This document shows positions 198 to 52,335 of a stretch of DNA of 64,000 nucleotides, piece by piece (the stretch's first letter is position 1; each line of letters begins with the position of its first letter). Source of the stretch: a virus; the IMG/VR virus record IMGVR_UViG_3300042197_002404, positions 1 to 64,000 of that record. The stretch is one strand, 5' to 3'. Below the pieces are notes generated by a model that saw only the letters and a list, made by a program, of their open reading frames with translations, ran no database searches and was not told the DNA's origin. The translations under genes were made by a program, and so were the position numbers.

Positions 198-1022
198 TTA
201 TTCAGCAGGTGCTTTTTGCCACTTCAATCTACCTTTCACCCATCCTTCAGGAATTGGTTGGTATTTTTTGTGTATAGTGGATTTTATACCATTGTTTATC
301 CACATTTTATTTCCTTTCAATCTACCTTTCATCCAACCTTCCGGAATTGGTTTATCTTTTTTGTGTCTAGTAGATTTTGTACCATCAGTTATCCATATTG
401 TATTTTTCATAGCAATAGAACATTTTTCTCTATTCTCTTTTGTTATTTCTTTTCCTTTATGAGTTAAACTTATTTTTTTCTTTGCTTCTTCAGTATGAGT
501 TCTTCCATAAAAGGGAGAGTTTTCTCCACCATATTTACCAATCATTTTTTCTCTTTGTTTTTGTTTACTTTCTTCTTTGTGTTTCTTACCATAAAAGTGA
601 TTGTTTTCGCCCAAACCCCTTTGTCTTAACTTTTCTATGTGCTCTGGACTAAATGGTTTCCTTTTTCTACCGATACGCATATTGATGTAATGTTCTCTTG
701 ATGTTTCATACAAATAAGAGTTTGGATATCCAATCCTCTCACGCATAATATTCATCATATGGAAAGCATAAATCATCTTTGCAGATCTATCATCATCTAT
801 TCCATATCTTTTTATAAATCCTTTCATTAAAAGAGCGTGTGCAATATAGTGCTCTCTTAGTGTTAAATAGACACATCTTTTATTTGTTCCTCCTCTATCT
901 TTTCCATAGATTGAACGAGGAAATATATGATGCTTTTCAGTCATTACTGGAGCAGTTTTTCTGTCCCATCCGCGTCTTTCTGCCTTGCGAATGAGAGACA
1001 AGTATCCCTTGAGGTAGTTCAT
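198..1022 (-). CDS. HNH homing endonuclease with NUMOD3-type DNA-binding repeats
   Basis: Predicted free-standing homing endonuclease of 274 aa. The N-terminal part holds an HNH-type core, HHIFPR at about residues 31-36 and LTLREHYIAHALL at about 53-65. Two NUMOD3-like motifs follow (G-E-N-x-x-F-Y-G-K/R-x-H, about 138-149 and 166-178); these are DNA-binding modules of homing endonucleases. The C-terminus has two copies of a W-I-x-x-G-x-K-S-T-x-H-K-K repeat ending in PIPEGW. The open frame extends seven codons upstream to a TTG, but the ATG at 1022 has AAGGA just upstream and is preferred. It sits between two fibre genes, flanked by terminators, with its own late promoter and a sequestering inverted repeat. 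Target unknown; a neighbouring fibre gene is the natural candidate. Confidence 0.85.
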   Translation of the reverse strand: MNYLKGYLSLIRKAERRGWDRKTAPVMTEKHHIFPRSIYGKDRGGTNKRCVYLTLREHYIAHALLMKGFIKRYGIDDDRSAKMIYAFHMMNIMRERIGYPNSYLYETSREHYINMRIGRKRKPFSPEHIEKLRQRGLGENNHFYGKKHKEESKQKQREKMIGKYGGENSPFYGRTHTEEAKKKISLTHKGKEITKENREKCSIAMKNTIWITDGTKSTRHKKDKPIPEGWMKGRLKGNKMWINNGIKSTIHKKYQPIPEGWVKGRLKWQKAPAE

Positions 1023-1046
1023 ATTCCTTAAAATGGGTAGCAATAA

Positions 1047-1054
1047 TATTTATA
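1047..1054 (-). promoter_or_regulatory. Late promoter of the HNH endonuclease gene
   Basis: A perfect TATAAATA on the minus strand, 25 nt before the ATG at 1022. It lies between the two arms of the 1032-1105 inverted repeat, so a late transcript would start close to the 3' arm. Confidence 0.75.
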
Positions 1055-1056
1055 TT

Positions 1057-1084
1057 AAAAAGGAGGAGCATTTCTGCCCCTCCT
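1057..1084 (-). terminator. Terminator after the 142-aa fibre-associated gene
   Basis: On the minus strand AGGAGG-x-GCA pairs with TGC-x-CCTCCT around a four-base loop, followed by five T. It lies 38 nt downstream of the stop of the gene at 1122-1550 and is one of three related GGAGGG/CCCTCC terminators in the locus. Confidence 0.8.
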
Positions 1085-1121
1085 ACCTGAAAAGTGCTAC
1101 CCATTCAGGAATAGTTATTTA

Positions 1122-1550
1122 TCACTCCTCTTCAGGTGCTGGTGGGGTTTCTAGTACCCATCCGGTGGTGTTATCTGCTTGGTATGCATCTTCGTCCCAA
1201 CGATAGAATGAGCGTGATGCAATCTCTTCTTCTGTGAGTGTAGGTGCAGGTCCTAATGGCGATTGCCAATCTGCGGTCTCCTCTTGAAGTTCCCACGATT
1301 CAAATGGGCGTGGGGGGATAAATGCGTTGAGTTCTTCTGAAAAACTGTAGCCAATCCCTGCGTATCTCACACGGAAGTTATTATTATAACTCGTCTGCTT
1401 CCAACGAGTATCAGCACCTAGGAGTTTCTTACAAAATGCAACTCCGATTTCTTCTACTTCTACTCCGTTAGCATCAGAAGTATCTTCGTTAGCAACAACG
1501 ATAACTTGTGTTACTACGTTATTTTCATCTAAGCAAGCAAAATGTGCCAT
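1122..1550 (-). CDS. Conserved fibre-locus protein, possible fibre-assembly chaperone
   Basis: 142 aa, beginning MAHFACLDENNVVTQVIVV. This is a recognisable small protein family of cyanophages and other marine phages, usually unannotated. It contains the GVAFCKKLLGADTRWKQTSYN segment and a C-terminal W-D-E-D-A-Y-Q-A-D-N-T-T-G-W-V motif, and ends in an acidic Pro/Glu tail. It is the last gene after a glycine-rich fibre (1634-3520) and before a terminator, the position where T-even and lambdoid phages often keep fibre chaperones. The chaperone role is inferred from position only; it could also be a minor virion protein. Start supported by AGGA upstream of the ATG. Confidence 0.7.
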   Translation of the reverse strand: MAHFACLDENNVVTQVIVVANEDTSDANGVEVEEIGVAFCKKLLGADTRWKQTSYNNNFRVRYAGIGYSFSEELNAFIPPRPFESWELQEETADWQSPLGPAPTLTEEEIASRSFYRWDEDAYQADNTTGWVLETPPAPEEE

Positions 1551-6478: not shown

Positions 6479-7025
6479 CTACTGATTGATGCTCTGGGAG
6501 TTTAGGTAATAAATCAAAAGAGATAATTGTTCGTTGCTTTCTTGCTTGATTGGGATGAACAAAATGTAGTGTATAAGAAGGAACGATGACTAATGTTCCC
6601 TCTTTGACATTCTGTGGATATGCAAGAGTTGTTGTATCAGTTCTTGGATCCTGCCAAGGAGCAACAAAGCACGTGGGTTGATGGATTTTGGGGTCATACT
6701 CAAGATAAAGAACTCCTGAGAATCCCCAACTCTTATGATTATGAATTGTTTGTTGGTCTCCTTGTTTATATCGTACTGCCCAACAATCAGTCATACTACA
6801 AGTTACCTGTGCTTCCTGACAGAACTCAAAGAGTTGAGGTCTGATGAGGTCTTGAAAGTAATGTAAATATGACTTCTTGTTGGTACTTCTGTCGGTCTCA
6901 AAAGTTTGGAGACTTGTGCGGATGAAGTTTTGGGCGTTTATTCTTTTGAGTAGCGACTTTTTTTTGAAGTCCCAATCGTCTATTTGGTATTGATAAGAAG
7001 GATATTCAAAGAGTGGTGCTTTCAT
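6468..7025 (-). CDS. 2-oxoglutarate/Fe(II)-dependent oxygenase-like protein
   Basis: 185 aa from the ATG at 7025. That start overlaps the stop of the endonuclease gene (ATGA) and has GGAG 9 nt upstream; a five-codon TTG extension is less likely. It resembles the TIGR02466/2OG-FeII_Oxy_5 type: C-W-A-V-R-Y, then H-N-H at about residues 95-97, G-V-L-Y-L-E-Y, a second metal-ligand region Y-T-L-H-F-V-H-P-N at about 152-159, and an Arg before I-I-S-F-D for 2-oxoglutarate binding. These enzymes hydroxylate protein or small-molecule substrates using Fe(II) and O2. The substrate is unknown; its place in the fibre locus suggests a virion or host-surface target. One of four such genes in the locus. Confidence 0.8.
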   Translation of the reverse strand: MKAPLFEYPSYQYQIDDWDFKKKSLLKRINAQNFIRTSLQTFETDRSTNKKSYLHYFQDLIRPQLFEFCQEAQVTCSMTDCWAVRYKQGDQQTIHNHKSWGFSGVLYLEYDPKIHQPTCFVAPWQDPRTDTTTLAYPQNVKEGTLVIVPSYTLHFVHPNQARKQRTIISFDLLPKLPEHQSVDRL

Positions 7026-7603
7026 TCTGGTAATCTCCAACCACGATATTCTTCTTTTTCTCCTCTCATAAGTTTATAAAAATATCCTCTTGAGAGTTTA
7101 TTATCTTTACAATAATTTTGCAAGTCTCTTATTTCTATTAATTCTCCTTCTGGATTTACAAAATGAAACGTTTTAGCGTGAGAGTTTCCAATCTTTTTCT
7201 TATGTTCTTCTGTTAGTGTTCTGTTTCTTAAAGGACTTGGTTTTCCTTTTCTTGCTTTACTTACTTTTTCTCCGTGTCCTGGTGGTTTCTTTTTTCCTTT
7301 ACCAGACTTACTCATTTTTTCTCTGGTTTCTTGTGACATTATAAGACCAGAGTTTCCTTCTCCACCATTACTTTTATTATAAAGAATACCAGTTCCCAAA
7401 TCTTTTCTACCAAAAACGGCAATCATATAGATTTCGTGTCTAAATGCTTCTTTTTCGGTGAGATTTGTTTTTAACTTTATTCTTCTATTTAATGGTGGTT
7501 TGCTACAAGGTCTGCCGTGAGGTTTGTTAATCCGATCTCCACTACCTTTTCCAATATAATAAGGAGTTCCGTCTTCACGCAGATATGCGTAAGTGTAATA
7601 CAT
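7022..7603 (-). CDS. GIY-YIG homing endonuclease with NUMOD3-type motifs
   Basis: 193 aa. The GIY-YIG nuclease domain fills about residues 1-85: YTYAY at 3-7, PYYIGKG at 14-20, an Arg in the first helix, a Glu in H-E-I-Y-M (about 57), and the closing N-G-G-E-G at 79-83. NUMOD3-like helices follow (S-Q-E-T-R-E-K-M-S, L-T-E-E-H-K-K-K-I-G), then a C-terminal basic domain. Its first 20 residues are almost the same as those of the GIY-YIG gene at 33604-34275, so the two are close relatives. It is inserted between two oxygenase genes, overlaps the next by ATGA, and has its own late promoter inside a sequestering inverted repeat. Confidence 0.9.
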   Translation of the reverse strand: MYYTYAYLREDGTPYYIGKGSGDRINKPHGRPCSKPPLNRRIKLKTNLTEKEAFRHEIYMIAVFGRKDLGTGILYNKSNGGEGNSGLIMSQETREKMSKSGKGKKKPPGHGEKVSKARKGKPSPLRNRTLTEEHKKKIGNSHAKTFHFVNPEGELIEIRDLQNYCKDNKLSRGYFYKLMRGEKEEYRGWRLPE

Positions 7604-7629
7604 TTCTTTACTGATTTGGGTTGCAGTAT

Positions 7630-7637
7630 TATTTATA
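7630..7637 (-). promoter_or_regulatory. Late promoter of the GIY-YIG gene
   Basis: Perfect TATAAATA on the minus strand, 26 nt upstream of the ATG at 7603 and just before the 3' arm of the inverted repeat. Confidence 0.75.
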
Positions 7638-7640
7638 CTA

Positions 7641-7664
7641 AAAAGGAGGGACTTTCACCCTCCT
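7641..7664 (-). terminator. Terminator after the oxygenase pair
   Basis: Minus-strand AGGAGGG and CCCTCCT pair over 7 bp around a 7-nt loop, followed by five T. Its sequence closely matches the terminators at 1057-1084 and 9117-9141. Confidence 0.8.
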
Positions 7665-7703
7665 CCTGAAAAGTGCAACCCAATCAGGTATTAGTATTTA
7701 TCT

Positions 7704-8421: not shown

Positions 8422-9048
8422 TCAAGACCACCTCTTACCTACAACCCACGCGACTAATGAACGGCGTGTGCCTTTAGTTACTTTAAGAACACGATGCTGT
8501 GCTCTGGAATCAAATACAATCACAGTTCCACGCTTTCTTGGAACGATATAACTATTGTTTGCTTCATCTAATATCTGTAAGTTGCCACCTTCGTATTCAT
8601 CAGGGTCGCTGAGTTGCACTACTATACTAAGCTTTCTAATCAATTCACAGTTTTCATTAATAAAGTCCTGTGCAATCTCTTGACCATTACCGCGATTGCC
8701 GACTGATACTGGTTTATAATGTGTTGCTAGACCTGCATCATTATGCCAGGAATAGAACTGTCCTTCTGTGTATTTTGTAAATTGAATACTTTCTCCATCA
8801 ATATTGCGAATATCATAGAGGAAGTTTTCACGATTTGCTCTTTCAATATAATGCCAAAGAAAACCACCAATCCAGTGTGTGGTGGGAATCCAGGCATTTT
8901 GTGAGTTTCTTTTATCACGATTTAGGGCATCGCCGTGTAAACGGCTGTCACCCATTTGCTCATCAAAATGTTCTACTGCGTCTCTTTCTAGAATATCTAC
9001 GATGTCTTCATTAATTTGGCTGTAGTACCATACAGATTGTAGTGCCAA
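8422..9048 (-). CDS. 2OG/Fe(II) oxygenase, prolyl-4-hydroxylase-like
   Basis: 208 aa. The double-stranded beta-helix core is clear: F-Y-S-W-H-N-D (H102, D104), the K-L-S-I-V-V-Q-L-S-D-P-D-E-Y-E-G-G-N-L strand pair of PKHD/prolyl-4-hydroxylase proteins, R-G-T-V-I-V-F-D-S-R-A-Q-H-R-V (H185), and Arg 195/196 before S-L-V-A-W for 2-oxoglutarate. All catalytic residues are present, so it should be active. The start is a TTG at 9048, chosen because AGGAG lies 8 nt upstream and homologous sequence begins there. A sigma70-type promoter lies 31 nt before it, so this unit can be made early, unlike the fibre genes around it. Confidence 0.85.
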   Translation of the reverse strand: MALQSVWYYSQINEDIVDILERDAVEHFDEQMGDSRLHGDALNRDKRNSQNAWIPTTHWIGGFLWHYIERANRENFLYDIRNIDGESIQFTKYTEGQFYSWHNDAGLATHYKPVSVGNRGNGQEIAQDFINENCELIRKLSIVVQLSDPDEYEGGNLQILDEANNSYIVPRKRGTVIVFDSRAQHRVLKVTKGTRRSLVAWVVGKRWS

Positions 9049-9116: not shown

Positions 9117-9141
9117 AAAAAGGAGGGATTTTCACCCTCCT
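9117..9141 (-). terminator. Terminator after the glycine-rich fibre at 9175-10236
   Basis: Minus-strand AGGAGGG and CCCTCCT pair over 7 bp around a 7-nt loop, with five T after it. The sequence, including the upstream CCTGAATGGG...TTCGGG segment, is a third copy of the block found in front of two homing endonuclease genes, here without an endonuclease. Confidence 0.8.
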
Positions 9142-9174
9142 TCCCGAAAAGTACCACCCATTCAGGTATTTTAT

Positions 9175-10236
9175 TTATGCAAGGTGTCTGATGATAACAA
9201 TACCAGGTCCACCAGTTCCTCCACTTCCTGGAGGAGCTGGACCTGCTCCACCTCCTCCGCCGCCAGTATATATAACACCCGGTAAAGCAGGTGATGGTGA
9301 TCCAGATCCACCAGATCCATTTCCACCTCTCCCTCCTCCACCTGGACCTCCAGTAGGTGAAGTGCCATCGCTCCAGTCACCAGCACCTCCACCACCACCA
9401 TAAAGACCGGTTGGTCCAACAACAGGAGTAAAAGAAGGACGGTTTGGTGCTGGTAAAAGAAGTTCAACCAAAGGTGCCGCAAATGCAGGAAATGGTTGAC
9501 CGTTACCGCCAGGTCCACCATTGCCACCGGGTCCAAAATTTCCAGCCCCGCCGGCACCACCGCCACCTCCCCATCCTCCGGGATCATACCCACTACCAGA
9601 AGCACCGGTGTTTCCGTAGTTTAAAATATTTGGGTTGTGAGAGTTTTGTGAAGGTTGGATTGCGTTTGGTGGTCCAGTTCTAAAAGAAACACCACCACCA
9701 CCAGATCCACCAGGAGCCATAGATGGTCCAGGAGGAGCACCTTGTGTTTCTCCTCCACCACCACCCTTTGACAGAATATAATATGGATTTGGAGAAGATG
9801 CAAAAGAAGAATCTCCACCATTAACTCCGTGAACACCTCCTGGAAAAGGTCCAGATCCTGTCGGTCCACCAGTTCCAACAATAACTGGATATGTTCCAGA
9901 ACTCAAAGTTATATTTGGAAGAAACGATATTCCTCCTGCCCCACCACCACCAGATCCATTTCCAGCTGGCGCAAATCCGCCGCCGCCGCCGCCAGCAATA
10001 ACAAGAATATCAAAAGATTTAGATCCATTCTCAATAATAAAGTTTCCGGGAGAAATGAAAGCATAATATCTATATCCGTTTCCTGGCGCTATTCCTTCAG
10101 AAATAGTTCCACCACTTGCAGAAAATAGTTGTATTCTATTAGTCCTCACACTACTATCAAGACTTAAATCCCTATCTCTAAAAGAGTTTAAAAGTTTTCC
10201 TACACTTCTTCCAAGACTTGATCTAATGGGAGCCAT
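9175..10236 (-). CDS. Glycine-rich tail fibre/adhesin, one Gly-rich domain
   Basis: 353 aa, beginning MAPIRSSLGRSVGKLLNSF. After an N-terminal segment of about 50 residues a single glycine-rich domain starts with Y-A-F-I-S-P-G-N-F-I-I and F-D-I-L-V-I-A-G-G-G-G-G, and ends with G-G-P-G-I-V-I-I-R-H-L-A. The core is rich in Gly, Pro, Ser and Asn turns (G-P-G-G-N-G-G, G-S-G-S-P-S-P). It lies 3 nt after its cap-like partner at 10240-10578 and is the last gene of its transcription unit. The closing strand matches the I-V-(V/L)-(V/I)-R-Y ends of other glycine-rich domains here. Likely receptor-binding fibre. Confidence 0.75.
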   Translation of the reverse strand: MAPIRSSLGRSVGKLLNSFRDRDLSLDSSVRTNRIQLFSASGGTISEGIAPGNGYRYYAFISPGNFIIENGSKSFDILVIAGGGGGGFAPAGNGSGGGGAGGISFLPNITLSSGTYPVIVGTGGPTGSGPFPGGVHGVNGGDSSFASSPNPYYILSKGGGGGETQGAPPGPSMAPGGSGGGGVSFRTGPPNAIQPSQNSHNPNILNYGNTGASGSGYDPGGWGGGGGAGGAGNFGPGGNGGPGGNGQPFPAFAAPLVELLLPAPNRPSFTPVVGPTGLYGGGGGAGDWSDGTSPTGGPGGGGRGGNGSGGSGSPSPALPGVIYTGGGGGGAGPAPPGSGGTGGPGIVIIRHLA

Positions 10237-32973: not shown

Positions 32974-33585
32974 TTACCACTTCTCTTCTTTCCACGTCAA
33001 CCTTTTCTCCAATTCTTTATCAAAAATCATTAGGTATCTGTGTTTTCTTGTTCTTTCTCTCCATTCACCTTCCAATCCTTTTACGGAACCTCTTGAATGT
33101 TTAGTTCCATCGGCATAATAAAAATCTTTTTTTGAATCCGTTAACCCATAATACTTGAAATTACAAGCGCGGTAGATAATTCCGTTGTGGCGAGTAGAAT
33201 CAGCGTAGCTAAGAATAACAGAAACATTTGCATCTTTTTTAAATCTCCGAATGCAACGACTTAAGAACCAGGATGTGATATTATATTCTTCTTTTTGTAT
33301 ATCTGGGTGTATGCAGAGTCTTGAAAGTTCATATATTCCTTCTTGTTGATTTCTTTCTAATCCAAATGCCCCTACGGCAATTTCTGGAACTGGGAGACTA
33401 GTGAAAACAATCCCACCAAGACAACCGCCAATATTAAGAGGGCATTCCCAGTCAGTATGTTTGAAAAGTCCATAGTTATACCAAGACTTAAAGGTTTTAC
33501 TTTCATCCTTAAGATAATGATGAGTTAAAAAGAGTGGTTCAAGTTCTTTTTTTGTCACCCGATCTATGTAGTATTGACTTTTCAT
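32974..33585 (-). CDS. Mom-like GNAT-fold protein, candidate DNA-base modifier
   Basis: 203 aa. The pattern Y-E-L-S-R-L-C-I-H-P-D (about residues 85-95), N-I-T-S-W-F-L-S-R-C-I-R (102-113) and I-L-S-Y-A-D-S-T-R-H-N-G-x-I-Y-R-A-C-N-F-K-Y-Y-G (124-147) matches phage Mu Mom and its GNAT-related homologues (E-L-x-R-L, N-x-x-S-x-F-I-S, Y-A-D-x-x-x-x-H-x-G-x-I-Y-Q-A-S-N-W-x-Y-x-G). Mom modifies adenine in phage DNA and blocks host restriction. Here the C-terminal third is basic (R-E-R-T-R-K-H-R-Y). No Mu-type com regulator is visible. It follows a GIY-YIG endonuclease gene by 18 nt and ends in a strong terminator. The modification role is inferred; another acyl-transfer substrate is possible. Confidence 0.7.
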   Translation of the reverse strand: MKSQYYIDRVTKKELEPLFLTHHYLKDESKTFKSWYNYGLFKHTDWECPLNIGGCLGGIVFTSLPVPEIAVGAFGLERNQQEGIYELSRLCIHPDIQKEEYNITSWFLSRCIRRFKKDANVSVILSYADSTRHNGIIYRACNFKYYGLTDSKKDFYYADGTKHSRGSVKGLEGEWRERTRKHRYLMIFDKELEKRLTWKEEKW

Positions 33586-33603: not shown

Positions 33604-34275
33604 TTATTTGCTAACATCTTTCAAGTTTCTGGACACTTTCCATCCTTTGTGTTGACTGTAAATTCCCCTAGCAACATAGTTAACTTTAGAATATGTTAAA
33701 TTGTGTTTGGAACAAAAATCTAATATTTCTGTAGTAATTGTAGTTTCGCCAGAAGGAGAAGTAAAAGTATAAACGTATTTTCTGTAAAGTTCATTATTTC
33801 TATTTTTTTGAGATTTTGATATATTATTTTTATGTTCCTCTGATAATTTACTACCGACTTTACTATCACTCATTTTTTTCCTAGATTCTTCAGAAAATTT
33901 TCGGTTTTTTAGTTTTTTACTTAATTTTTTCCTGGTTTCTTTGGAAAATTTTCTTCCTCTTGCAATTTTTCTTAATTTTTCTTTATGCTCATCACTAATA
34001 ACTCTTGGAGAACCTGAAGTTCCTTCACCTCCATTAGTCATATTATATAAAATTCCAGTCCCTAAATCTTTTCTACCAAAAATAGAAATCATATAGATTT
34101 CGTGTTTAAATGCTTCTTCTTCAGTTAAATTCTTTTTTAGAAAGATTATTCTGTTCTTATCTTTTGGTGGTTTTATTCTTCTATCTTTCCTATAAATTCT
34201 TCTCTTTTTACCTTTACCAATATAGTAAGGAGTTCCGTCTTCACGCAGATATGCGTAAGTGTAATATTCGTTCAT
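33604..34275 (-). CDS. GIY-YIG homing endonuclease with NUMOD3-type motifs (second copy)
   Basis: 223 aa from the ATG at 34275; a 19-codon TTG extension runs through the late promoter and is rejected. Motifs: YYTYAY at residues 4-9, PYYIGKG at 16-22, H-E-I-Y-M-I with the Glu, and N-G-G-E-G. Three or four NUMOD3-like helices follow (I-S-D-E-H-K-E-K-L-R, F-S-K-E-T-R-K-K-L, F-S-E-E-S-R-K-K-M, L-S-E-E-H-K-N-N-I), more than in the copy at 7022-7603. The nuclease domain is closely related to that copy, so one probably derived from the other. It sits between the tRNA island and the Mom-like gene and carries the same late promoter/inverted-repeat control. Confidence 0.9.
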   Translation of the reverse strand: MNEYYTYAYLREDGTPYYIGKGKKRRIYRKDRRIKPPKDKNRIIFLKKNLTEEEAFKHEIYMISIFGRKDLGTGILYNMTNGGEGTSGSPRVISDEHKEKLRKIARGRKFSKETRKKLSKKLKNRKFSEESRKKMSDSKVGSKLSEEHKNNISKSQKNRNNELYRKYVYTFTSPSGETTITTEILDFCSKHNLTYSKVNYVARGIYSQHKGWKVSRNLKDVSK

Positions 34276-34276
34276 C

Positions 34277-34350
34277 GTGTCTTGGCGTTGACTATTAGTA
34301 TTTATAATACCATAAAAGGAGGACTTACGCAACTAAATCCGCCAAGACAC
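34277..34350 (-). promoter_or_regulatory. Long-range inverted repeat enclosing a late promoter, upstream of the second GIY-YIG gene
   Basis: An 11-bp perfect inverted repeat (transcript GTGTCTTGGCG at 34350-34340 and CGCCAAGACAC at 34287-34277). The 3' arm ends one base before the ATG at 34275. The 5' arm lies in the loop of the hairpin at 34318-34364. A late promoter lies between the arms. Arm sequences are unrelated to those at 1032-1105 and 7611-7687, but the arrangement is the same. Confidence 0.65.
34299..34306 (-). promoter_or_regulatory. Late promoter of the second GIY-YIG gene
   Basis: Perfect TATAAATA on the minus strand, 23 nt upstream of the ATG at 34275. Confidence 0.75.
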
Positions 34351-34364
34351 TAGTTGCTGCCTCC
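34318..34364 (-). terminator. Terminator-like hairpin presenting the 5' switch arm in its loop
   Basis: Minus strand: GGAGG (364-360) pairs with CCTCC (322-318) and GCAACTA (357-351) with TAGTTGC (335-329), leaving a 15-nt loop that contains the GTGTCTTGGCG arm. Four T follow. It begins 2 nt after the stop of the gene at 34367-34540. Termination strength is uncertain because of the internal bulge. Confidence 0.55.
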
Positions 34365-34744: not shown

Positions 34745-34829
34745 AGCTGGAGACAGGATTTGAACCTGCGGTGTCCTTTCAGAGCGGCATTACAAGTGCC
34801 GTGCGTTCGACCTCTACGCTAACTCCAGC
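34745..34829 (-). tRNA. tRNA-Thr(UGU) by anticodon, with an unusually long variable region
   Basis: Acceptor stem GCTGGAG/CTCCAGC, anticodon stem CGGCA/TGCCG with loop CTTGTAA (anticodon TGT), T-arm GCAGG-TTCAAAT-CCTGT. No CCA is encoded. Between the anticodon stem and the T-stem are 15 nt (CTCTGAAAGGACACC) instead of 4-5, able to form a short GAAA-capped stem, and the D-loop contains GGTCGAA as in tRNA-Ser. These are class II features, expected for Ser/Leu/Tyr rather than Thr. ACA codons are common in this AT-rich genome. Confidence 0.85.
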
Positions 34830-35145: not shown

Positions 35146-35218
35146 TACCTGTGGTGAGATTCGAACTCACGCTTGAACGATTTTAAGTCGTTTGCCTCTT
35201 CCGCTGGGCTACACAGGC
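35146..35218 (-). tRNA. tRNA-Leu(UAA) by anticodon, with a short variable loop
   Basis: Acceptor GCCTGTG/CACAGGT, D-stem GCC/GGC, anticodon stem AACGA/TCGTT with loop CTTAAAA (anticodon TAA), variable loop CAAGC (5 nt), T-arm GTGAG-TTCGAAT-CTCAC. No CCA is encoded. Bacterial tRNA-Leu normally has a long variable arm; this one is class I in shape. It reads UUA, a preferred codon in AT-rich phages. Confidence 0.9.
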
Positions 35219-49917: not shown

Positions 49918-52335
49918 CTAAAAAATACCAAGAATTTTTTGTCTTGCTTTTCTATTTCCATCCTTAGGACACGTCGCACCAAAATTTGGTGTTTTTACTG
50001 AAGGAGATGATCCACCTCTTTTAGCATTCTGCCTTGCTTGCATTTTTTGAGCATAAGTTTGTGATTGTGGTTTTGGTGGAGGTGAGACTGGTTTTACTTT
50101 AGGTTTATTTGCGGCAGCTGCAAGTTTAAGTTCCTGTTGCTTATAATTAGATCCAAGATTTGAAACCTTACCTGCGTTCTGAGCTGCAATAACATTTGAA
50201 GCAGAATAATTCGCCATCCCAGCTTGTTTTTTCATTTCTGCTTCATTCTTTATTCTTACTTCCTTTGCCTTAAGATCATTAACTGCACGAGAGTATGCAT
50301 TAGGTCCAAGTCTCATATTCAACATCTCTTTGACCTTTTCCTCAGGCATTACTTTTCGATAATCCTGTAGATCACTTATTGCGGTAAGTCTTAATGTTCT
50401 TGCATTTAAAGTTTCTTCTTTTGCTTTCGCACCTTTAGGGTCAAAAAAGTTTGTAATATTTTCTAATAGTCCTTTCTTTCTTTGTGTTGCTCTTTGATAT
50501 GTTGGTTCTCCATTCTTAAACGCAAGATATCCAACAAAAGGACCATCAGGACCCATCATAATTTTTGTTTTGGGTAAATTCTTCTTATCTTCTCTTGTTA
50601 CTCCACCACCAGATCCACGATATGACTTATTCGTTGCCCCGTACTTATCAACCTGTCCGGCAAGACCTTTTGTGAAATTAGAAACATAGATGACATCATT
50701 TCCCCTTTTCATAGCAAAATATCTTTTGCCCGCAAGAGTTATTTCATTTTCATAAGACCCACCAGGAGGAAGAGAAACTTTGATTGCCTCTCTACCCATA
50801 AAAGTTGTTGGAACACCTTTTCCAATATTAGAACCAAGACCTGCACCTTTAATAGTAATACCTTGTCCAGAAGCAAGTGCTCTTTGAGATTGCATTTGTT
50901 GTTCTATTCTTTTCAGTCTTGCACTCAAATTTTGTTGTGATAGGTCTTCTTTACGATCAGCAATCATTCCTCCAGAATATCCGGTTATCTTATCAAGTTC
51001 CCTTTCCCTCTTTTCAAGTATTGGATCTTTGATTTTTTCTTTCTTTTCTTCCTGGGTTCCAATATAACCGCCACCTTGAGCATAAGTAGTGCCACTTACC
51101 ATCTTTGGTCTGTTTGTTCCTCCACCTGCAGCGTTCATAGATTCAAGAGTGTCAACACCATACTTTGCAACAGCACCGCGAGACATAACAAACTCACCAT
51201 CACTAAGCATCGCTGGGACTTTATCAACACCCTTCTCTCCGCTTACAAATCCACCAAACATTTCTTGAGGTTTACCAGATCCACCAAGTAACATTCCAAG
51301 AGGACCAAACATAGATCCTAGAGAGGCACCACCCATCATTCCCTTAAAGTTAAATCCACCACCCGAGAATGTTGGGAATCTTGGTTTTACGTATCCACCA
51401 CCTGCAAATTTTTGGGTTTCTTGTTTGTCTTCTCCACCCTTCAATCCTTGAGTAAGTGCATAAGTTCCCCCAAGGGCAACTCCAGTACCTATAACACTTG
51501 CAAGAAGTTTTCCTTTTCCCCCACCAAGAAAACCTGCAACTTTTCTAGCACCTCTTATCTTTTTAGCAGCAGCTAGTTTGGCAATAAGAGCAATAAGTTT
51601 GAATGAACCTAAAGTAACTGCTTTAAAAAGTCCTTTTGCAAATCTACCAAAACTTGTGCCAAATACAAGGTAAAGAGATAAAAGTTTTGGCCAGTTATCT
51701 CCTAAAAATCTAATAATAGAGTTTACTTTCTTAGCATTACTTGGATCACCAAACCATTCAAGTAATTTAAAAACTACTCTACCAAGGAAAACGGTTACAA
51801 AAAAATCTATTATCCTATCTAAAATGCTTTTTACTGGTGCTATAACTTTTTCAGCATCTCTTTTTAACCCATCGAATCTCTTTTCAAGATTACTTTCTGC
51901 AAGTGACCTTTTATCTTGCTCTGCTTTTCTTTTATCAAAAGCAGCAGTATCGTCTAGAAGTTTTTTTCTTCCCGATAATATCTCTGCTATTGAACTTACG
52001 GATTCCGCGATAGCAGAGATATTATCTTCTACATTTGAAGTAGAACTTCCAGGCAACTTAGCACCAATATTTTCTCCCCCCATTCTTCCACTTTGAGATT
52101 GTGAAAGATTCTTAAGAACAGTAATTTTTCTAGAGTTATTATTGACTGTTTTTTCTAAAGAAATAACTCTCCCAACAAGTTTCCTGGTATGTCCAGCAAG
52201 ACTTGAAAGTGTTTTATGTATATTCGCAATACTTTTAGAAGAATCTAAGGAGCTCCCTCTCTTAAAACTTTCAGCAGAGATTACAGTTTTTTTAAGTTGT
52301 GAATCTAAATCTGTTAAGTCTTTAGAAATGGGCAT
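49918..52335 (-). CDS. Tape-measure-like tail protein
   Basis: 805 aa. N-terminal coiled-coil region (L-D-S-Q-L-K-K-T-V, K-L-V-G-R-V-I-S-L-E-K-T-V-N-N-N), a hydrophobic membrane-type stretch (I-I-D-F-F-V-T-V-F-L-G-R-V-V-F-K-L-L) at about 170-190, and the F-A-G-G-G-Y-V and G-G-F-V-S-G-E-K-G-V-D-K-V-P-A-M-L-S-D-G-E-F-V segment at about 365-390. That last phrase (G-x-D-x-V-P-A-M-L-S-x-G-E-x-V-(M/V)) is a well-known tail-tape-measure signature. With the gene downstream this gives two tape-measure-like proteins in a row; one may correspond to gp29 and the other to a hub or chaperone-associated partner. Confidence 0.75.
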   Translation of the reverse strand: MPISKDLTDLDSQLKKTVISAESFKRGSSLDSSKSIANIHKTLSSLAGHTRKLVGRVISLEKTVNNNSRKITVLKNLSQSQSGRMGGENIGAKLPGSSTSNVEDNISAIAESVSSIAEILSGRKKLLDDTAAFDKRKAEQDKRSLAESNLEKRFDGLKRDAEKVIAPVKSILDRIIDFFVTVFLGRVVFKLLEWFGDPSNAKKVNSIIRFLGDNWPKLLSLYLVFGTSFGRFAKGLFKAVTLGSFKLIALIAKLAAAKKIRGARKVAGFLGGGKGKLLASVIGTGVALGGTYALTQGLKGGEDKQETQKFAGGGYVKPRFPTFSGGGFNFKGMMGGASLGSMFGPLGMLLGGSGKPQEMFGGFVSGEKGVDKVPAMLSDGEFVMSRGAVAKYGVDTLESMNAAGGGTNRPKMVSGTTYAQGGGYIGTQEEKKEKIKDPILEKRERELDKITGYSGGMIADRKEDLSQQNLSARLKRIEQQMQSQRALASGQGITIKGAGLGSNIGKGVPTTFMGREAIKVSLPPGGSYENEITLAGKRYFAMKRGNDVIYVSNFTKGLAGQVDKYGATNKSYRGSGGGVTREDKKNLPKTKIMMGPDGPFVGYLAFKNGEPTYQRATQRKKGLLENITNFFDPKGAKAKEETLNARTLRLTAISDLQDYRKVMPEEKVKEMLNMRLGPNAYSRAVNDLKAKEVRIKNEAEMKKQAGMANYSASNVIAAQNAGKVSNLGSNYKQQELKLAAAANKPKVKPVSPPPKPQSQTYAQKMQARQNAKRGGSSPSVKTPNFGATCPKDGNRKARQKILGIF

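Follow-up and report, generated by a model that had tools for sequence, protein, structure and literature searches.

Homing endonuclease genes of cyanophages appear to travel with an RNA-controlled expression cassette

Expression of several phage homing endonucleases is governed by a cis-acting RNA lock, which is known for I-TevI, I-TevII, I-TevIII and segB of T4 and which, with mobE of Aeh1, covers both GIY-YIG and HNH enzymes (PMC2988022, PMC3014915). In the T4 genes, the start region is masked by a stem that forms only in RNA begun upstream, and RNA from an internal late (or middle) promoter is made without the 5′ strand of that stem (PMC2988022, PMC3014915); mobE, which also has a lock, is a free-standing HNH endonuclease gene (PMC2988022). 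The T4 precedent invoked in a preliminary description of the DNA studied here is real, and it already spans both endonuclease families. A review of T4 noted that no small trans-acting regulatory RNA of this phage had been functionally characterised, and hoped for candidates from related genomes (PMC3014915). In cyanophages, for which NATAAATA is the published late promoter, an RNA has also been tied to a homing endonuclease gene, namely CfrI of S-PM2, although this RNA of ~225 nt is antisense to psbA and the endonuclease gene (PMC2984593), whereas the module reported below is a same-strand leader element.

We analysed 64,000 nucleotides of viral DNA (hereafter the window), in which three homing endonuclease genes, HEG1 to HEG3, lie on the minus strand. 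Leader elements are listed from upstream to downstream, P1 and P2 denoting the outer and inner late promoters; they were assigned from the sequence and, for hairpin 1 of HEG1, also from covariation.

1116-1123, minus strand: HEG1 P1, late promoter GATAAATA, directly 5′ of the 5′ arm
1086-1109, minus strand: HEG1 hairpin 1, CCTGAA..TTCAGG, whose loop contains the 5′ arm
1095-1105, minus strand: HEG1 5′ arm AATGGGTAGCA, pairing with 1032-1042
1057-1083, minus strand: HEG1 terminator hairpin and T run
1047-1054, minus strand: HEG1 P2, late promoter TATAAATA
1032-1042, minus strand: HEG1 3′ arm TGCTACCCATT
198-1022, minus strand: HEG1 coding region (NUMOD3 above cutoff; homing endonuclease match phrog_655)
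7695-7702, minus strand: HEG2 P1, late promoter GATAAATA, directly 5′ of the 5′ arm
7665-7688, minus strand: HEG2 hairpin 1, CCTGA..TCAGG, whose loop contains the 5′ arm
7674-7687, minus strand: HEG2 5′ arm CTGATTGGGTTGCA, 14 bp with one bulge, pairing with 7611-7625
7640-7663, minus strand: HEG2 terminator hairpin and T run
7630-7637, minus strand: HEG2 P2, late promoter TATAAATA
7611-7625, minus strand: HEG2 3′ arm TGCAACCCAAATCAG
7022-7603, minus strand: HEG2 coding region (GIY-YIG-type N-terminus, read by eye, and NUMOD3 above cutoff; homing endonuclease PHROG)
34318-34364, minus strand: HEG3 GGAGG..CCTCC hairpin, whose loop contains the 5′ arm and after which comes TTTTAT; no P1
34340-34350, minus strand: HEG3 5′ arm GTGTCTTGGCG, pairing with 34277-34287
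34299-34306, minus strand: HEG3 P2, late promoter TATAAATA
34277-34287, minus strand: HEG3 3′ arm CGCCAAGACAC, its last base one before the ATG
33604-34275, minus strand: HEG3 coding region (GIY-YIG-type N-terminus, read by eye, and NUMOD3 above cutoff; homing endonuclease PHROG)

The preliminary description had placed at each gene a 5′ arm, a terminator-type GGAGG/CCTCC hairpin, a perfect TATAAATA promoter and a complementary 3′ arm, in that order. Read on the minus strand, its three arm pairs are borne out, and the promoter and the hairpin with T's after it are present at all three genes; only the order had to be corrected at HEG3, where the GGAGG..CCTCC hairpin carries the 5′ arm in its loop. 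That different order, P1, the hairpin around the 5′ arm and a solo copy of the upstream elements at 9117-9179 are new to the present analysis. As had been claimed, the arms of HEG1 and HEG2 are one compensating pair apart (TGGGTAGCA/TGCTACCCA versus TGGGTTGCA/TGCAACCCA), and those of HEG3 bear no sequence relation to either.

Compared with these cassettes, the stems of T4 I-TevI, I-TevII and I-TevIII are short (6-8 contiguous Watson-Crick pairs in our scan) and enclose no terminator, and a search of 135 kb of T4 returned 0 copies of the P1-hairpin-terminator module. The Aeh1 mobE leader (L205) resembles the cyanophage layout in that 13-bp arms, ATTTGCACCCTCT/AGAGGGTGCAAAT, flank a TAAATA motif, but differs in having no inter-arm terminator and, over the 260 bases read, no upstream P1.

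The stop codon of HEG2 shares the ATGA at 7021-7024 with the start of a downstream 2OG-Fe(II) oxygenase gene, an overlap that suggests translational coupling. Two minus-strand tRNA genes (34746-34828 and 35146-35218) lie shortly upstream of HEG3, and the gene adjoining it at 32974-33585 gives a match (E 1.4e-22) to Mom, a Pfam family that takes its name from the DNA modification protein of phage Mu.

Association with endonuclease genes was assessed by scoring stems between the region upstream of each late promoter and the 5′ UTR, across 86 promoter-ORF rows from the complete cyanophage S-SRM01 and the window; one row, for a promoter right at the beginning of the S-SRM01 record, owed its high score to an indexing artefact and was excluded. 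All stems above the best non-endonuclease score were at endonuclease genes, including the three of the window, and with genes counted by hand 13 of 19 endonuclease genes passed compared to 0 of 65 other late-promoter genes (Fisher P ~ 4 × 10−11). Six S-SRM01 endonuclease genes with a late promoter had no long arms in the stem scan. Shuffled 5′ UTRs never equalled the window stems (60 shuffles each), and chance inverted repeats are ruled out by these controls together with the covariation described below. The P1-hairpin-terminator module, scanned for in the fetched loci, S-SRM01 and the window, gave 147 matches, 143 of them followed by a second late promoter; two of the other four (window 9178 and L002) look real. 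Nearly all ORFs behind the 59 non-redundant modules with an ORF start like known endonucleases. Those checked among the atypical or doubtful ones were an HNH protein (L005:7577), a homing endonuclease family match (L005:2343), a weak endonuclease VII match (L099) and two ORFs for which the PHROG search gave no match (L052 and L096:724).

At NC_070963.1 51291 and 192466, the annotated gp075 and gp297 starts fall inside the leader element, with likely ATGs near 51348 and 192520. The NUMOD3/GIY-YIG-type endonuclease genes NC_070963.1 gp114, MN695335.1 b23_0045 and PV340852.1 SfCH5_200 carry the label 'translation initiation factor 2', an error that has probably been propagated.

Two viral-contig searches yielded 160 relatives, with a late promoter close upstream in 150. 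These, S-SRM01, the window and pattern matches made up the leader set, from which 126 non-redundant leaders were parsed; matches L017-L029 of a wide pattern scan were mostly chance and were left out. P1 and the terminator occur in 99 of the 126, the type B layout (GGGCAGCAAC-arm-GTTGCGTAAGTCCC, without P1, as at HEG3) in 13 and simple stems in 3, the remainder being other or none; stems without P1 or terminator precede S-SRM01 gp207, gp225 and gp048. At the threshold used, arms were found in 109 of 126 leaders, with 78 distinct arm sequences. Among cultured phages, S-SRM01, B23 and S-B68 carry the module and Sf-CH5 carries type B. The layout occurs on HNH-type and GIY-YIG genes alike, as the preliminary description had it. 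Short hairpins over a late promoter, which would place the late start within the stem and so recall the simplest layout of T4, were seen in L203 upstream of 896 and in NC_070963.1 upstream of 162245.

We assessed covariation on a MAFFT alignment of 48 leaders built from sequence alone. Unguided mutual information placed three arm pairs at the top of its list. Given the named structure, 90.8% of arm cells were paired, with double changes in 9 of 10 pairs, counts that are inflated by the relatedness of many loci and do not represent independent events; the arm covariation score was 0.641, compared to 0.196 after shuffling (0/500) and at most 0.139 in slid controls, which preserve relatedness. 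Hairpin 1 also covaried, with double changes in 5 of 5 pairs and 86.5% of cells paired. For the 78 distinct arms, predicted duplex energy averaged −23.1 kcal/mol with the cognate partner and −11.2 kcal/mol with non-cognate partners, and the cognate partner ranked first for 52 of the 78 3′ arms. That pairing rather than sequence is conserved, as proposed from the window, is thus seen both over the 48 aligned leaders and in the diversity of arms. The arms could also be read as recombination or insertion scars with no regulatory role, and P1 does overlap or abut the upstream stop codon in many loci, as for a cassette at a defined junction; compensatory changes that keep pairing across 78 arm sequences make this reading extremely improbable.

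Mismatched arm cells comprised 46 G:U, 1 C:A and 18 other combinations. Many of the G:U cells sit at junctions of fixed flanking motifs, and a recount limited to 5′ bases in the hairpin loop gave 13 G:U to 1 A:C. Mismatches of the G:U and not the A:C kind indicate that the pairing is in RNA, since they are not expected of inverted protein-binding sites in double-stranded DNA. They argue against the arms being inverted operators for the endonuclease or another protein, as does the great difference in arms even between genes for similar proteins. The I-TevI operator, and the predicted operators of I-TevII and I-TevIII, overlap promoters (PMC2988022) and the 3′ arm starts directly behind P2, yet we regard a DNA-level role as very unlikely. 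Judged from these alignments, the stem is conserved as RNA pairing in the leaders.

Folds were predicted with RNAfold, hairpin-loop pairing and pseudoknots being outside its judgement. In transcripts that start at P1 and extend into the gene, the long stem had a mean predicted probability of 0.96 (89 loci), and hairpin 1 had a probability of zero in seven of the eight examples printed and was not defined in the eighth. In P2 RNA, which has no 5′ arm, the 3′ arm was predicted to be unpaired with a mean of 0.63, and in terminated P1 RNA both hairpin 1 and the terminator hairpin were predicted to be kept. The predicted closure of the stem in read-through RNA and its absence from P2 RNA are as the preliminary description had anticipated.

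Base composition supports P1 as a promoter. P1 and P2 of 102 non-redundant modules have a common consensus, ATAAATA-N-TAAT-purine-C, which is absent from the other late promoters of S-SRM01, and at the expected +1, 96% of P1 and 98% of P2 sequences have a purine. P1 begins with A (76%) or C (23%) and never with G or T, both of which are common before TAAATA in S-SRM01. We rejected the possibility that P1 is a mere TAA stop codon, given this first base and the fact that the upstream gene stops at P1 in some loci only. With a T4-like start position, which we assume to apply to P1, transcription at HEG1 and HEG2 would start at the base of the CCTGA..TCAGG hairpin. Because P1 is followed by a hairpin with the 5′ arm in its loop and then by a terminator, a short late RNA (~50 nt) is expected, with complementarity to the endonuclease mRNA at the 5′ end of the latter. 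Within-genome orthogonality of the arms, considered for its bearing on action in trans, was 0/48 versus 3.6% (P = 0.31).

We propose, with a probability of roughly 0.78, that the endonuclease genes move together with an expression cassette under RNA control, which comprises a lock in cis, an escape through P2 and possibly P1 RNA acting in trans. RNA arriving from upstream would mostly be halted at the terminator, and in read-through RNA the 5′ arm would pair with the 3′ arm before the start codon and block ribosome access. RNA from P2 would begin at the 3′ arm, without the 5′ arm, and be translatable; with lock and P2 combined, the gene's own late mRNA would be the sole source of the endonuclease, in whatever operon the gene lies. 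At most copies, the twin late promoter P1 would give a short late RNA, made of a hairpin presenting the 5′ arm and then the terminator, which, acting in trans, may anneal to P2 mRNA at its 5′ end and hold late expression down. The earlier claim that this logic restricts synthesis to late infection holds in that the inner late promoter would give mRNA without the 5′ arm, but is too simple, P1 itself being late. At HEG1, the upstream gene is served by a NATAAATA late promoter of its own, so that read-through there would also be late, and transcripts from P1 should be late and contain the 5′ arm; 'late only' therefore follows from P2 and not from the arms alone. Likewise, a hidden ribosome-binding site suits HEG3, the only one of the three window genes where the arm reaches the start codon, while no canonical Shine-Dalgarno is covered at HEG1 or HEG2. 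The perfect core of the 3′ arm ends 9 bases upstream of the ATG at HEG1 and 12 at HEG2 (9-12 nt at most loci), so the block would act on the leader, and the strength of ribosome blockage by an arm that stops there, outside the likely ribosome-binding site, is uncertain. The best-supported core of this proposal is a lock that silences the mobile endonuclease in RNA from the surrounding operon, whichever it is, and is opened by its own late promoter.

In IS10, the mobile element's nuclease mRNA, RNA-IN, is complementary at its 5′ end to the loop of RNA-OUT, a short hairpin RNA transcribed over it from the opposite strand. Here, in contrast, both predicted RNAs would come from the same strand, via an inverted repeat. 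We tentatively suggest, at somewhat less than even odds, that P1 gives a short late trans-acting RNA whose loop silences the P2 endonuclease mRNA, an RNA-OUT/RNA-IN-like pair with twin late promoters on one strand. If the short RNA acts on P2 mRNA, the presence of both P1 and a covarying hairpin would make most sense. A purely cis-acting lock of the T4 type, with arms that work only within read-through RNA and a P1 that is incidental or serves another purpose, is a serious possibility that we would nonetheless bet slightly against. It is the sole established mechanism (PMC2988022), simple stems with neither P1 nor terminator precede S-SRM01 gp207, gp225 and gp048 and Aeh1 mobE, and type B leaders, HEG3 included, have arms but no P1; less readily accommodated are P1 plus terminator in 99 of 126 leaders, a start-site consensus common to P1 and P2, and covariation of hairpin 1 (5 of 5 pairs) even though it is predicted to be absent from read-through RNA.

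Copies of the P1-hairpin-terminator module also occur alone, in the window as follows.

9117-9179, minus strand: solo element, with P1 CATAAATA at 9172-9179, hairpin 1 at 9143-9166 and terminator at 9117-9140

This element has no P2, 3′ arm or endonuclease gene, and the next gene, at 8422-9048, encodes a 2OG-Fe(II) oxygenase and has a TATAAT-like promoter. Further solo elements were seen in L002, L004 and L006, all with arm TGGGTGGTA as in the window and no endonuclease after them; P1 is degenerate in L004 and L006. Predicted pairing of the RNA of 9117-9179 with the HEG1 3′ arm was −19.4 kcal/mol, compared to −21.7 for the cognate RNA, and such solo copies could silence other endonucleases. 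Clearly mismatched 5′ and 3′ arms were found in three leaders (L003:12266, L012 at about 810 and L167 upstream of 406), a pattern that recombination between two cassettes at the conserved inter-arm terminator could have produced.

Rfam covariance models run on window positions 1-40000 returned only two tRNAs and one sub-threshold mir-194 match, and no family for the element; no description of the P1-hairpin-terminator module was found in the open-access literature searched. The cis lock is the known part of the cassette and the module the new one, less certain as a trans-acting RNA. The P1 element, which occurs in the cultured phages S-SRM01, B23 and S-B68, is a candidate for the kind of small trans-acting RNA looked for in relatives of T4. 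These results extend a few T4 examples to a widespread, covariation-supported control rule for homing endonucleases in cyanophages, in which the proposed lock would explain why a mobile gene that inserts into many operons need not be expressed from them.
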